A stretch of DNA of 64,000 nucleotides from Bacilli bacterium (GTDB taxonomy: Bacteria; Bacillota_I; Bacilli_A; RF39; UBA660): NCBI GenBank assembly GCA_017436345.1, contig JAFSDH010000008.1, forward strand, positions 109,839 to 173,838. Direction: 5' to 3'. Under the pieces are notes generated by a model that worked only from the letters and a program-made list of their open reading frames with translations, ran no database searches and had not been told where the DNA came from. A program made the position numbers and the translations under genes. Below, piece by piece: positions 20,396-29,827 of the stretch (position 1 is the stretch's first letter; every line of letters begins with the position of its first letter).

Positions 20396-20418
20396 AGAGA
20401 GATTACTTATATCTCTTT
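20396..20418 (-). terminator. Intrinsic terminator
   Basis: Minus strand AAGAGAT...ATCTCTCTTTTTTT; stem AGAGAT/ATCTCT, seven-nt loop, T-run. Ends the 328-aa gene and overlaps its last codons. Confidence 0.7.
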
Positions 20419-21389
20419 TCTTTTCTTTTTTGATTAAATCTTTCTTTTTGAGCTTTATATTCTTCTATATCAGCCTTGCGTTCTTCCGCTTTTAAGTTAA
20501 CAAAGTCTTTTAACTCAACCAATTCTTCACCTGCAAGTAACATTTCTGGTAAAACAGCACCATACTTATCAACTGAAGATTTATGTCTTTGATAATACTC
20601 ATATCTTCTTAACTTCATCCAACCTTCTTTAAAATCTTTATCAATATCAGGAAGTGTTGGTTTATTAAGCGAATCATCCTCTTCTTTTTTTTCACCAAAC
20701 AAATTAAATTCAAAAGTTAAAAAGAATGAATCATATTCATTTGAAAAAGATCTTTCCATATAACGATCACGCCATAAAGATGCATTTTTCTCAATTCCTT
20801 CTTCAACTACTTCAGGATCCATACCAATTTTTGTTAAAGTATCAACAACACCTTTTCTAAACGCCAAATCAGCAGTATTAGACATTTCAAAGAAATCTCC
20901 TCCAAGTTCTTCGTCAATAATCCAATTTTCGCCACCATTTCTCATCCAGTTGATTTGCCATTTAACTATTTCAAGTTCATAATTATGTCTAGCTTCCTTA
21001 AAGAAAGAACTATTCTTAACATAATCTAATATATAACTAGAACTAATTGCTACTAAATTTCTATCTTTTCTAAACATCTTCGCAAGCCATTCATCATCTC
21101 TTAAATGACATGGTAAGTTACCCATATTAACTTCTTCAGGTCTTCTAAAACAATTACTATACCAATTTCCATCTTTTGGAAAAAACTCTAACGACTCCTT
21201 ATCTAATATCTCATCTAATTTTTCTGAAACAAAAGACTTAGGAGCTTCTAAAACAGCATCTTCTTGAATGGTAGTATCTGATACATCTATAACATTTTCA
21301 TCTGTAGTAGAAACAACATCTTCTACAGCTTTATCTTTGCTTCTACTAAGTTTTTGTCTTGCTTTTAATAAATACTCTTTTATATTCAT
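20403..21389 (-). CDS. Hypothetical protein, 328 aa
   Basis: Soluble protein with a basic N-terminus (LLKARQKLSRSKDK), an acidic linker, then a Trp/Tyr-rich helical domain (DGNWYSNCFRRPEEV, IVKWQINWMRNGGENW, YMERSFSNEYDSFF) and a highly charged C-terminal helix ending in KRYK. I recognise no family or active-site motif. AGGGGGATATT precedes the ATG. It is the minus-strand neighbour of the reverse transcriptase locus and is divergent from it, sharing a 266-bp intergenic region; whether it is functionally linked is unknown. Confidence 0.55.
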   Translation of the reverse strand: MNIKEYLLKARQKLSRSKDKAVEDVVSTTDENVIDVSDTTIQEDAVLEAPKSFVSEKLDEILDKESLEFFPKDGNWYSNCFRRPEEVNMGNLPCHLRDDEWLAKMFRKDRNLVAISSSYILDYVKNSSFFKEARHNYELEIVKWQINWMRNGGENWIIDEELGGDFFEMSNTADLAFRKGVVDTLTKIGMDPEVVEEGIEKNASLWRDRYMERSFSNEYDSFFLTFEFNLFGEKKEEDDSLNKPTLPDIDKDFKEGWMKLRRYEYYQRHKSSVDKYGAVLPEMLLAGEELVELKDFVNLKAEERKADIEEYKAQKERFNQKRKEKRYK

Positions 21390-21468
21390 AATATCCCCCT
21401 AAAAATTAGTAATATTATAATTTTTTCTAACTAAAAAAGCAAGTTTTTTCTAAAAAGACAATATTTTA

Positions 21469-21477
21469 TGATACAAT
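21469..21477 (+). promoter_or_regulatory. Extended -10 promoter of the RT-associated RNA
   Basis: TGA-TACAAT, an extended -10 element. A start 7 bp downstream falls at 21484, exactly the first base of the inverted repeat that closes the candidate RNA. No good -35 is seen. Confidence 0.55.
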
Positions 21478-21483
21478 ACATAT

Positions 21484-21634
21484 GAGGTAGATGCTATTAA
21501 GCTCCTGTAGTGGGATGAAGTATATCACAAATATGATTTTGCAGGTAATCGTGATATATATAGTCTCGTCGATATAATATGAAATATTCTAAATTAGAAT
21601 AATTTCATATTATTCTCAAAAGAGATTCTACCTC
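21484..21634 (+). ncRNA. Candidate structured RNA of a retron/DRT-like reverse transcriptase locus
   Basis: The ends are an 8-bp inverted repeat, GAGGTAGA (21484-21491) and TCTACCTC (21627-21634), which resembles the a1/a2 repeats of retron ncRNAs. Inside are three helices. Helix 1 is TATATCAC (21521-21528) with GTGATATA (21551-21558). Helix 2 is a 19-bp AT-rich hairpin at 21574-21613 with one bulged A and a 3-nt loop. Helix 3 is TCTC-AAAA-GAGA (21614-21625). The RT start codon is 21 bp after the closing repeat. Structure is read by eye; a folding and covariation test has not been done. Confidence 0.6.
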
Positions 21635-21655
21635 TTTTATTATGGTGGTGTATTT

Positions 21656-22861
21656 ATGAGTATAATAAATCTTTTGGATAACGATAATTATATGAATGAT
21701 TTTATAAATCATAAAATTAAAAATAATCTATCTAAAAAAGAAATAAAAGAATATAAAAAATTAAAAGATAATGAAAATGTAAAAGATATCATAGATAAAA
21801 TAAAAAATAATAATTATACTTTTTCCTATCCAAGAAAAACTATTATAAATAAAATAAGAAAAAACAAAAAAAGAATTGTATATCAATATAAAAAAGAGGA
21901 AACATATATATTAAAATTTATAACTTATCTTCTCTATAAATATGATTATTTATTCGCAAACAACTTATATTCTTTTAGACAAAATATATCTGTCAAAAAT
22001 GCTATTAATGATATTAAAAAATATAATTTAAATAACAAATACACTTATAAAGTAGATATAAAAAACTATTTCAATAGTATTAATATAAACAAATTATTAA
22101 AAGAACTAAAAAAAGATATTGATATAGATACCTATACCTTAATAAAAGATATTTTAGAAAATAAATATGTAACATATAAAAACGAAATATTAGAAGAACA
22201 AAAAGGAATAATGGCTGGAGTTCCTCTATCATCATTTCTAGCTAATTATTACTTAAAAAATCTTGATAAATATTTTGAAGATAATAATATAATTTATTTT
22301 AGATATGCCGATGATATATTGATATCAACTGACTCCAAAAAAGAACTTGATAAATATATAAAAATAATTAAAAAAGAACTAAAAAAGAAAAATTTAGATA
22401 TAAATCAAGAAAAAGAATACTTTTATGAACCAAGTGCCACTATAGAATTTCTAGGTTTTTCTATAAAAAAAGATAATATTGATATAAGTAATAATTCTAT
22501 AAAAAAAATAAAAGGAAAAATAAAAAGAAGTTCAAGAAGTATTAGAAGATGGATGATAAAAAAAAAAGTAAAAGAAGAACCAGCCTTAAAAACCATGATA
22601 AAAAAATATAACAAAAAATTTTTAGGTAAAGAAGAAAATGAACTATCATGGAAATATTGGTACTTCCCAATTATAACAACAGATGAATCATTAAAAATAA
22701 TTGATTCTTATTTACAACAAGAATTAAGATACTTAATAACAGGAAAACATAATAAAAAAAACTATGAAAAAGTTCCTTATGATTTATTAAAAAAATGTGG
22801 ATATAAATCTTTAGTAAACGAATTCTATAACTTCAAGAATAAGAATAAAGATAATAAATAA
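21656..22861 (+). CDS. Stand-alone reverse transcriptase (unclassified, retron/DRT/group II-like)
   Basis: A 401-residue RT with all core motifs: YSFRQNISVKNAI (motif 1/2 region), motif A YKVDIKNYFNSI near residue 132, motif B KGIMAGVPLSSFLANYYL near 183, motif C YADD near 216, motif D KKNLDINQEKEY and motif E EFLGF. Both catalytic Asp of YADD and the motif A Asp are kept, so it should be active. No endonuclease, protease, integrase or Cas domain is fused. The C-terminal 90 residues (WYFPIITTDESLKIIDSYL, ELRYLITGKHNKKNY) look like a thumb/domain-X region. The retron NAxxH and VTG motifs are not evident, and the motif B is unlike DGR RTs. No effector gene is in the same orientation. The very lysine/asparagine-rich composition follows the AT bias. 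GGTGGTG lies before the ATG. Confidence 0.9.
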   Translation: MSIINLLDNDNYMNDFINHKIKNNLSKKEIKEYKKLKDNENVKDIIDKIKNNNYTFSYPRKTIINKIRKNKKRIVYQYKKEETYILKFITYLLYKYDYLFANNLYSFRQNISVKNAINDIKKYNLNNKYTYKVDIKNYFNSININKLLKELKKDIDIDTYTLIKDILENKYVTYKNEILEEQKGIMAGVPLSSFLANYYLKNLDKYFEDNNIIYFRYADDILISTDSKKELDKYIKIIKKELKKKNLDINQEKEYFYEPSATIEFLGFSIKKDNIDISNNSIKKIKGKIKRSSRSIRRWMIKKKVKEEPALKTMIKKYNKKFLGKEENELSWKYWYFPIITTDESLKIIDSYLQQELRYLITGKHNKKNYEKVPYDLLKKCGYKSLVNEFYNFKNKNKDNK

Positions 22862-22865
22862 AAAA

Positions 22866-22890
22866 AGCTTATCTCGCAATGTGATAAGCT
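22866..22890. terminator. Bidirectional terminator between RT and the 109-aa gene
   Basis: AGCTTATC and GATAAGCT with a 9-nt loop, flanked by A-run on the left and T-run on the right; serves both convergent genes. Confidence 0.8.
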
Positions 22891-23198
22891 ATTTTTGTAC
22901 TTTTTTTACATCTCTCAACTATTACATAACAATTAGATCCTTTATTAAATCTAACATCAGTTTCTTGAACAAAACCATTTTGTTTTAATAATTCTTTATA
23001 TTCATCAAGCGGTTTTCCAGGATAATAAATTTCTAAACGATTATATTTTTCGGTAACTTTTTCTTCTGGTTGTTGAACTATTTTCTTTTGATAAATAGGA
23101 AAACTAGAATAATAAGTTGGTATTAAATGTGCTGTTGTCATATAATCGGAATCAACTTTTGTTTTTCCAAATCCAAATAAATTACTAAAAAATCCCAT
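22869..23198 (-). CDS. Hypothetical protein, 109 aa
   Basis: Starts MGFFSNLFGFGKTK, an amphipathic segment like those of peripheral membrane proteins, then a Tyr/Pro-rich linker and a compact C-terminal alpha-beta part (YYPGKPLDEYKELLKQNGF) that ends CYVIVERCKK. The ATG six codons into the longer frame follows AGGAGGTCATCTT and is the real start. Not recognised. It is convergent with the reverse transcriptase and shares its terminator, so a joint transcript is unlikely. Confidence 0.55.
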   Translation of the reverse strand: MGFFSNLFGFGKTKVDSDYMTTAHLIPTYYSSFPIYQKKIVQQPEEKVTEKYNRLEIYYPGKPLDEYKELLKQNGFVQETDVRFNKGSNCYVIVERCKKSTKIAYHIAR

Positions 23199-23290
23199 AA
23201 GATGACCTCCTATCATAATTAAATGATATCATAAATAGATAAAATATCAAATATAATTTAAATATTAAAAATAGATATTTTCTAATTTTT

Positions 23291-24010
23291 TTACTTTTTT
23301 TCTTTTACTTTACCTTTTTCTATACCAAGATAAGGATATAAATGATATTGTGCTTCTTCTTTAGCTTTATTCATATAAAAATCTTTTTTATCACTATTAA
23401 GTAATACATCACAATGACCTTTCATATCACATCCATCAATTTCTTCAGCAAAAGTATAATTGTAATATAAATCTTTAGAATCAATTATTACTTTTCCATG
23501 GCCTTTTATATCAGCACCAAAAACATCATGAGCAAAAACGTAATTATACCAAACATCTTTACTTCTCATAACCGCTTTTCCATGTTCAGAAACTTTTGCA
23601 TTCTCAACATATAATGCAAATAAATAGTTATACTCAGGATCTAAAGAATCAATAATAACTTGACCATGTCTTAAAACATCAGCATCACCAATATTAACTG
23701 CAAAAAAATAATTATTTTCTATATCTTTACTATCAATTACTACTTGACCATACTTTTTTACATCAACCCAACCAATATTAGCTGCCATCTCATAACACAG
23801 TTCCGGATCAGCTAAATCCAATACTAAACTATCAACTAAACTACATAAATCCTTATCACCATCAGATACAAAATGATCAATGCTTTCAACGATCTTTTCA
23901 CGACCAATTTCTTCAAAATGATCTTCTTCTTTCATATCTTTTAAATTACTTAAGTAATTTATTATTATTTCAATACCTATAATTTCATCATTAAATAAAT
24001 CATCATTCAT
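23291..24010 (-). CDS. Tandem 28-residue repeat protein
   Basis: A 239-residue soluble protein. After a helical N-terminus of about 80 residues come five tandem repeats of 28 residues with the pattern DSKDxxYNYxFAxxVxGADVxxHGxVII (for example HGKVIIDSKDLYYNYTFAEE). Such repeats are seen in scattered bacterial proteins of unknown role and would build a solenoid for protein contact. Its ATG is 5 bp after the TAG of the gene upstream, with AAAAAAGGAAA as Shine-Dalgarno inside that gene's end, so the two are coupled. No catalytic residues are visible. Confidence 0.65.
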   Translation of the reverse strand: MNDDLFNDEIIGIEIIINYLSNLKDMKEEDHFEEIGREKIVESIDHFVSDGDKDLCSLVDSLVLDLADPELCYEMAANIGWVDVKKYGQVVIDSKDIENNYFFAVNIGDADVLRHGQVIIDSLDPEYNYLFALYVENAKVSEHGKAVMRSKDVWYNYVFAHDVFGADIKGHGKVIIDSKDLYYNYTFAEEIDGCDMKGHCDVLLNSDKKDFYMNKAKEEAQYHLYPYLGIEKGKVKEKK

Positions 24011-29141: not shown

Positions 29142-29215
29142 AACTACTTCCTCCTTATATAATTATAAAATATGTTATAATATAAATACATAAGTAAAAA
29201 AAGGATTTGATTAAT

Positions 29216-29827
29216 TTGACATATGAAAGTGTAAAAAAAGACGAAAATATTTTAAAAATATTAAAAGAAATAGATAAGCAACATAGTAATATCTATCATG
29301 GAATGAATCATACATTGAACGTAATTAATAATATTAATAAACTATGTTCATTATTAAATATAAGTAAACATGAAAATGATTTACTAAAAATAGCAGGTCT
29401 ACTTCATGACATTGGTCATCAAACAGGAAAAGAAAATCATGAAATCAAAAGCTATGAATTTGCTAAAGACTATTTAAAAAATAAAATAAATGAAAACGAT
29501 TATCTAAAAATAATAAACGCAATAAATAAACATCATGAAAAAGAAAATATAGCTAATCTAACTCTATTTGAACACATTCTTCTTTTTGCTGATAAAATGG
29601 ATTTTTCATATACAAGAATTAATTCTGAACTAAATGAATACACATTAGAAAAAGATATATTAGAAATTAATTTTGAAATAAAAGAAAATTATTTTATTAC
29701 TTCTATAAAAACAAACAAATTAAATATAAAGGATTTTAAAAATTGGCCATACTATACTAAAGTTAAAAAGAGGATTGAAGAATTTGCTAGAAAACTAAAG
29801 AAAGAACCTAAAATAAAAATATTTTAA
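29216..29827 (+). CDS. HD-domain phosphohydrolase-like protein, TTG start
   Basis: About 203 residues with a full HD motif: YHGMNHTLNVINNI, GLLHDIGHQTGKENHE and NKHHEKENIANL, then ADKMDFSY. It belongs to the uncharacterised HD proteins with HDIGH. No ATG is in frame near the ribosome binding site; a TTG at 29216 lies 10 bp after AAGGA, and another TTG at 29207 is too close. The TTG start is inferred. Transcription starts probably from TG-T-TATAAT at 29176-29181. A terminator follows. Confidence 0.82.
   Translation: MTYESVKKDENILKILKEIDKQHSNIYHGMNHTLNVINNINKLCSLLNISKHENDLLKIAGLLHDIGHQTGKENHEIKSYEFAKDYLKNKINENDYLKIINAINKHHEKENIANLTLFEHILLFADKMDFSYTRINSELNEYTLEKDILEINFEIKENYFITSIKTNKLNIKDFKNWPYYTKVKKRIEEFARKLKKEPKIKIF

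Follow-up and report, generated by a model that had tools for sequence, protein, structure and literature searches.

What is a stand-alone reverse transcriptase (RT), preceded by a structured RNA, doing in the genome of a Bacilli bacterium? The question was raised by a 64,000-nt stretch of DNA (contig JAFSDH010000008.1, positions 109,839 to 173,838 of the forward strand; hereafter the window), in which a preliminary description of the sequence had placed such an RNA at 21484-21634, closed by an 8-bp inverted repeat (21484-21491/21627-21634), ahead of an RT gene at 21656-22861. Our analysis bore out these coordinates: the ATG of the RT at 21656 lies 21 nt past the closing repeat, and its stop codon ends at 22861. 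The same description could name no class for the pair and suggested a new RT-noncoding RNA system. Instead, the RT is UG26 in PADLOC and the RNA is RT-5 in Rfam, both already catalogued, so the system is not a new one. The locus belongs to a known family, and the new points are a fuller fold of its RNA and a second family of partner genes, which we call Y.

The RT matches the PADLOC profile RT_UG26 (PDLC03764) over its full length (468.9 bits, E 2.7e-141; profile positions 1-397 of 398, residues 1-395 of the protein). The runners-up in PADLOC are a general RT profile with 124.9 bits, then UG4, UG17 (DRT10; 118.2 bits, against the 468.9 of UG26), UG27, Cas1_IIIb, Drt9 (88.6 bits) and Drt3a. Judging from UG4, UG17, UG27, Drt9 and Drt3a among these, the RT would belong to the class-2 branch of the UG RTs. 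It stays below every cut-off of the NCBIfam profiles for group II RTs, Drt3a, retrons and Drt2, and the profile scores disfavor membership in retrons, group II introns, DRT2, DRT3a, DRT9 and DRT10. As had been read from the sequence, the protein keeps its catalytic residues (YADD at 217-220 and D134) and no fused effector, maturase or endonuclease domain was recognized in it; Pfam sees RVT_1 only.

An AlphaFold2 model of the RT, built from the window protein and 27 relatives (pLDDT 91.2, pTM 0.86), finds its nearest solved folds in the GsI-IIC group II RT and DRT9 (9vma, E 7.4e-16), followed by the G2L4 RT and DRT2 (9c0i). Late in the UG26 proteins there is a conserved TG-x-HNKKN-like motif (residues 362-363 in the window, LITGKHNKKNYE). 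Many members read VTG here, at a place far from what we take to be the position of the retron VTG. The terminal helix holds an aromatic pair, FY (390-391) in the window. Of 80 RTs, 62 fitted the C-terminal pattern and 18 did not, and in 59 of the 62 the pair includes a tyrosine. By analogy with the related systems discussed below, this pair is a candidate priming site.

The RNA belongs to Rfam family RF03026 (RT-5), which matches 21499-21606 across all of its positions (1-104 of 104) with 56.1 bits, above the gathering score of 45.7. For comparison we used 81 further loci: 80 from species genomes, the best among at least 352 confirmed RT loci, and one, L002, from a genome of the same class. 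RF03026 scored above gathering in 12 of 12 relatives scanned among these 81, and RT-5 is therefore very likely the RNA of UG26 as a whole; both of the UG26 lineages described below have this RNA family. The Rfam model pairs helices P3 to P5, and P1, P2 and a pseudoknot lie outside its modeled pairs. The features of the RNA and the RT gene in the window are as follows.

21469-21477, plus strand: extended -10-like site, TGATACAAT, the predicted promoter of the RNA, read from the sequence; its hexamer is conserved across the lineage
21484-21634, plus strand: RT-5/UG26 noncoding RNA, 151 nt, supported by Rfam, covariance model R1, fold and covariation, the last giving its full extent
21484-21491, plus strand: 5' strand of P1, GAGGTAGA, first half of the 8-bp inverted repeat, paired with 21627-21634
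21493-21502, plus strand: P2, a small hairpin, GCU-AUUA-AGC, from the covariation alignment
21504-21509, plus strand: 5' strand of the pseudoknot, CCUGUA, paired with 21540-21545; the outer position, 21503/21546, is U-U in the window
21512-21516/21563-21567, plus strand: P3, within 21512-21567, from fold and covariation
21520-21528/21551-21559, plus strand: P4, with base pair G21520-U21559, from fold and covariation
21535-21538/21547-21550, plus strand: P4b, from fold and covariation
21540-21545, plus strand: 3' strand of the pseudoknot, UGCAGG, inside the P4b loop, from covariation
21574-21613, plus strand: P5, an AT-rich 18-bp hairpin with a bulge, from fold and covariation
21614-21626, plus strand: linker from P5 to P1, UCUCAAAAGAGAU, by analogy a candidate template region
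21627-21634, plus strand: 3' strand of P1, TCTACCTC, from covariation
21644-21650, plus strand: GGTGGTG, from its position alone the likely ribosome-binding site of the RT
21656-22861, plus strand: UG26 reverse transcriptase, 401 aa, PADLOC RT_UG26

The fold is richer than the three helices that had been drawn within the repeat, which encloses five helices and the pseudoknot. The AT-rich hairpin seen earlier is present, with 18 bp and a one-base bulge in place of the 19 bp assigned to it. As a whole, the 151-nt sequence folds at -44.9 kcal/mol; 200 dinucleotide shuffles averaged -26.2 (z -5.08), and none of them was as good. A covariance model, R1, built from 17 relatives and containing helices P1 to P5, with the pseudoknot left out, was run over 82 sources (916,948 bases), namely the 81 loci plus the window. 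The RNA stands beside the RT in 77 of the 82 sources: R1 matched once in each, always on the RT strand, and nowhere else in the bases searched. Five sources have no match. In L022, L026, L065 and L077 the RT match begins close to a contig end (at 319, 118, 1 and 119 bases, respectively), so the RNA may have been cut off. The fifth, L067, has 1.9 kb of upstream sequence yet no R1 match, and the motifs used did not give a single frame for its RT. In the window, R1 puts the long P5 in the wrong place and its match breaks off at 21596; here P5, the linker and the 3' strand of P1 were set by hand.

Covariation extends across the 151-nt region. In the alignment of the 77 RNAs, 92.6% of 3455 cells pair and 43 of 46 pairs show double changes. 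The covariation score is 0.747, whereas shuffles give 0.284 (sd 0.007) and slid partners never exceed 0.156. As P1, the closing repeat forms a conserved helix, with 96.8% of cells paired and double changes in all 9 of its pairs. A lack of covariation, which the preliminary description had named as grounds for its refutation, is thus not what the homologous loci show. P2 is paired in 92.6% of cells and P5, in most relatives a short hairpin with a small loop, in 90.2%; all 77 sequences have G-U as the basal pair of P4. The alignment leans toward the modeled helices, P1 to P5, and not toward the pseudoknot, which is absent from the aligning model. Its seven pairs are formed in 97.3% of cells (two rows, L028 and L064, have gaps in these columns), and six of the seven show double changes, with variants such as GCCUGC/GCAGGC, ACUUGC/GCAAGU, AUCUAC/GUAGAU and GUCCAU/AUGGAC. 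The window forms six pairs, 21504-21509/21540-21545.

The RNA lies upstream of the RT except in three loci of Methanomassiliicoccaceae, where it is downstream on the same strand (L008:4230-4352, L009:5883-6003 and L010:7187-7307); in another archaeal locus, L055 (Thermoplasmata), it is upstream. Shortly before P1, a hexamer that agrees with TATAAT in five or all six positions precedes 20 of the 22 RNAs in the window's lineage (15 exact) and 20 of the 44 in the other lineage (5 exact); L030 and L035 were placed in a lineage by hand for these counts. The promoter-like site that had been proposed ahead of the RNA is therefore upheld by the conservation of its hexamer, but TGATACAAT is absent from the sites of our promoter scan and has no acceptable -35. 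The scan itself runs at chance level in this region (20 promoter-like sites found in 21300-23300, 19.6 expected). In the other lineage, the RNA begins 4 to 52 nt past the stop codon of an upstream gene, X, in all 36 loci that have it. From these sequence patterns, we assume that in the window's lineage the RNA is transcribed from a promoter of its own.

X is one of two families tied to the RT that emerged when we clustered the open reading frames (ORFs) surrounding the 79 loci, all but L055 and L067, that could be parsed. It lies upstream on the RT strand in 36 of the 79. The second family, Y, is convergent and downstream of the RT in 11 of the 79 and in the window, either within about 30 nt of the RT (L005, L011-L015 and L017) or 0.8-1.8 kb from it (L023, L025, L032 and L037). 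No locus among the 79 and the window has both. An RT tree of 76 rows (the 79 loci and the window, less L026, L030, L035 and L065, whose RTs are at contig ends or truncated by them; midpoint-rooted for drawing) divides along the same line: 23 rows, including the window, hold 12 Y and no X, and 53 rows hold 36 X and no Y. The dividing branch has an SH-aLRT of 92, below the 95 mark. PADLOC lists a UG26 partner, RTasCOG2852 (PDLC03793), as an associated label and not as a declared requirement; its profile matches 4 of 9 X proteins tested (E 0.001). This partner is missing beside the window RT and from all 23 rows of its lineage, and a search of the window's own genome returned only a 36-position match on another contig (E 0.002). 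Y itself has no Pfam, PADLOC or NCBIfam family at E 0.001.

In the window, Y, which the preliminary description had missed, and the sites around it are arranged as follows.

22867-22896, no strand assigned: terminator-like hairpin, GCTTATC, 9 nt, GATAAGC, then TATTTTT, between the convergent RT and Y genes, read from the sequence
22869-23198, minus strand: gene Y, 109 aa (MGFFSNLF...), a candidate partner from its family's place near RT loci and its co-occurrence with the RT
23223-23250, minus strand: promoter-like TTGATA-16-TATCAT with TG ahead of the -10, upstream of Y, from the promoter scan and of the chance-level class

The stop codon of Y falls inside the hairpin, which is common to the two convergent genes. 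The loop of 9 exceeds the limit of our terminator scan, and the scan lists no terminator. The site upstream of Y is one of the 20 promoter-like sites counted above.

Both partner families tend to start MGFL-like with an amphipathic stretch. Over residues 2-15, the hydrophobic moment averages 0.44 in 38 X sequences, 0.52 in 11 Y sequences and 0.25 in 547 other ORFs, with the starts of X and Y set by a simple motif. In one X (L079) and one Y (L011), a hydrophobic run replaces the amphipathic stretch. From these N-termini we infer that X and Y may be tethered to the membrane. The upstream X of L047, L048 and L051 include proteins in which a zinc-ribbon-like N-terminus with paired cysteines replaces the MGFL stretch, and L051 and L079 have two copies of X each near the RT. 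The single match of an X profile in the window's lineage is the Y of L014 (E 2.5e-4). A structure model of X (pLDDT 77.9) reads PD-(D/E)XK-like in the order of its elements, and it has no significant match in the PDB (best E 0.051). In a 16-row alignment of X, no acidic column is found among those conserved at 90% or more; X is therefore probably non-catalytic, with a PD-(D/E)XK-like fold predicted by the model.

Y follows the RT across genomes. Of 59 relatives, G000 and G633 have it, and the RT is likewise confined to these two. Of 392 phylum genomes, two have the RT and one, that of the window itself, has Y; in neither set does any genome have Y without the RT. The genomes behind 38 RT loci include 11 with Y, once each and always beside the RT, and Y occurs in none of the 17 from the X lineage; the 10 others, from the window's lineage, also have no Y and are weighed below. 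Homologs tell the same story by an indirect proxy for a shared genome: between 120 listed RT homologs of 693 and 120 listed Y homologs of 132, 15 longest-contig sizes are identical, compared to a mean of 0.79 and a maximum of 3 in controls with the values shifted by 1 to 60 bases. The window and L005, a congener, share their wider neighborhood, and a continuous 78%-identical block, 21464-23252, spans RNA, RT and Y; between these two the block is vertical. In contrast, L011, L012 and L015, compared with the 64-kb window up to 6 kb on each side (the Y of L015 by profile), have RT and Y in common with it and not the surroundings, apart from one generic match in L012. The link between Y and RT is thus not just synteny.

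UG26 RTs are patchily distributed: 2 of 392 phylum genomes, 2 of 59 relatives and 34 of 294 genomes in the order of G253. The window's genome (1.70 Mb, 25 contigs) has one match to the window RT. One genome in the order of G253, G520, has three UG26 matches, one of them with an internal TAA. The RT loci come from Bacillota, Bacteroidota and Thermoplasmatota, nearly all of them from metagenome-assembled genomes.

What, then, might RT, RNA and Y do together? In the literature searched we found no paper on UG26 function; one survey lists UG26 (PMC10504277). In the class-2 UG RTs studied so far, noncoding RNAs encoded in cis template repeat cDNA (PMC13174585). DRT9 primes on two conserved C-terminal tyrosines, Y496/Y498 (PMC12483538), and DRT10 on the C-terminal S456 or Y444; the authors of the DRT10 study propose that repeat cDNA controls a membrane effector (PMC12632851). 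On balance, we lean toward a reading in which the UG26 RT, the RT-5 RNA and Y act together as a class-2 DRT-like antiviral system, with protein-primed, RNA-templated cDNA and Y as the membrane partner. The RT would associate with the pseudoknotted RNA and, with its own C-terminal tyrosine as the primer, convert a short unpaired part of that RNA, possibly the linker between P5 and P1, into repetitive cDNA. This cDNA would control Y, predicted to sit at the membrane, and the RNA-RT-Y cassette would defend against phage. By analogy with these systems, we hold protein-primed, RNA-templated synthesis with moderate confidence, and phage defense by the UG26 locus appears plausible.

DRT10 (UG17) is like UG26 in its RT, which is of class 2 as the UG26 RT is predicted to be, its noncoding RNA in cis of similar size (137 nt in DRT10), its separate small partner and its C-terminal hydroxyl residue (PMC12632851). 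The partner in DRT10 is a SLATT protein, whereas Pfam finds no family in six neighbors of the window RT, Y among them, and DRT10 has a demonstrated A-B-A' template, a pattern that we did not convincingly detect in UG26. DRT9 (UG28) likewise combines an RT with a noncoding RNA (PMC12483538), but its template is poly-U, and neither the linker nor the P4 bulge of the window has a U-run. DRT2 also joins an RT to a pseudoknotted noncoding RNA (PMC12039810). However, the NCBIfam Drt2 profile gives the window RT 58.9 bits against a cut-off of 390, and the 151-nt RNA has no long unpaired region.

By eye, the stretch between P5 and the 3' strand of P1 resembles A-B-A' in many RNAs, and two A columns of the linker are conserved at 97% and 94%; in the window, the linker is partly paired in the minimum free energy fold. 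When five regions were tested against shuffles, the linker with 3-4 flanking bases was enriched, its value being reached in 1 of 300, as was the P5 apical loop (2 of 300, from 15 rows only), and the bulge and the bulge plus loop were not. In a free search for A-B-A', head-tail permutation gave a mean of 3.66 (sd 0.09; maximum of 400, 3.92), and the window itself had a p of 0.09. This search dropped four near-duplicates (L007, L018, L030 and L064) and one misparse (L045), and in about ten rows P5 was delimited by hand.

Several results weigh against our reading, beginning with the remaining repeat tests, from which no template emerged. The linker alone was not enriched over shuffles (286 of 300), and the free search over 63 RNAs averaged 3.76 against 3.71 for shuffles (z 0.4). 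A fixed-register permutation of 71 of the 77 rows (L051, L046, L041, L023, L035 and L020 were dropped as misaligned) was reached in 916 of 2000 trials over all rows and 796 of 2000 within groups without a shift, and in 196 and 576 of 2000, respectively, with a shift of one. Given the linker after P5 and the C-terminal tyrosine of UG26 on one side, but mostly negative repeat tests on the other, we commit ourselves only moderately to protein-primed, RNA-templated synthesis; the linker, drawn by analogy, is a candidate template. The Y label requires at least 5 changes on the RT tree, compared to 11.3 for shuffled labels, and the amphipathic stretch is missing from the Y of L023, L032 and L037 and from the zinc-ribbon X. 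Homology of X and Y beyond the N-terminal motif was considered and is unsupported (hhalign probability 4.3). Y is absent from all 10 whole genomes of the window's lineage that lack it at the RT; the lineage as a whole therefore does not depend on it, and part of the lineage can dispense with it. Around the RT, PADLOC applied to 10 neighbors in the window gave only weak Cas3- and Cas10-like matches of one HD protein, leaving no evident defense island. Finally, no RT relatives were found in viral contigs (searched with exact peptide patterns), phages or plasmids, and no X in viral contigs. The survey that lists UG26 in cold-seep viruses (PMC10504277) speaks against a purely chromosomal reading.

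The ten genomes without Y each keep the RNA, which suits a simpler arrangement: RT and RNA might suffice, as in DRT9, by making a toxic cDNA, with Y linked to them through a shared insertion site or lineage history. The vertical block shared with L005, in the same wider neighborhood, fits this as well. Nevertheless, we consider it rather unlikely, since L011, L012 and L015 have RT and Y in common with the window and not the surroundings, the contig sizes of RT and Y homologs coincide far above the controls, and Y occurs in no RT-less genome among the 59 and 392. That the locus serves the cell in some way other than phage defense, for instance through regulated DNA synthesis in stress, is less probable again. 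Such a role would be in keeping with ten neighbors that hold no recognized defense genes beyond the weak HD-protein matches, with the lack of phage or plasmid copies and with vertical descent in the window/L005 pair; it accords poorly with the patchy occurrence, the spread over Bacillota, Bacteroidota and archaea, the kinship of the RT profile to those of defense RTs and the viral listing in the survey.

The remaining alternatives concern the RT itself. The preliminary description had likened the repeat to the a1/a2 pair of retrons, and indeed an inverted repeat closes an RNA with a long internal hairpin next to a stand-alone RT, as if a 2'-5'-linked multicopy single-stranded DNA (msDNA) were made from P5. 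The repeat is genuine, but the kinship is formal only: retron_St85 gives 71.8 bits against a cut-off of 235, with UG26 far ahead, and the protein, as had been read before, has no NAxxH. Moreover, P5 is short in most relatives, so a long msd hairpin is not conserved in UG26 RNAs, and we regard a retron-like system as very unlikely. Least probable of all, and close to negligible, is a degenerate group II intron RT with a remnant of intron RNA. The GsI-IIC group II RT does provide the best PDB folds (TM 0.71-0.75 by model length), and TIGR04416 scores 131.7 bits; its cut-off is 300, however, no group II intron RNA reaches the gathering score in the window, and the RNA has a conserved fold and family of its own.

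Our preferred reading, an RT-RNA-Y system, could be taken further. In a doubtful extension, UG26 immunity would be tripartite, with an RT-RNA core that, in the two lineages, has acquired different small membrane-tethered effectors, X as a COG2852-like pseudo-nuclease and Y, and with repeat cDNA, templated by the linker in a telomerase-like manner, checking or triggering the effector. The template unit in the window might then be 13 nt, read from AUUCU-CAAAAGAG-AUUCU.

Beyond the cassette, the 328-aa neighbor at 20403-21389 (minus strand) matches no Pfam, PADLOC or NCBIfam family. It is present in 1 of 59 relatives, its own genome only; the cassette thus sits in a variable spot, for which no empty site was defined. 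The HD-type protein at 29207-29827 (plus strand), the source of the weak Cas3-HD and Cas10 profile matches (E 2.5e-7 and weaker), is probably an ordinary HD hydrolase.

UG26 had been catalogued as a defense RT, and the present analysis ties it to the Rfam RT-5 RNA. It adds a fuller RT-5 fold, with a pseudoknot backed by covariation, and a second partner family, which has no counterpart in Pfam, PADLOC or NCBIfam and is characteristic of one of the two UG26 lineages. If our reading is correct, UG26 would represent another type of defense built from an RT, an RNA and a small protein, and the purpose of RT-5 RNAs would become directly testable. It would also bear on whether membrane-tethered partners are a general feature of defense RTs that copy a template.

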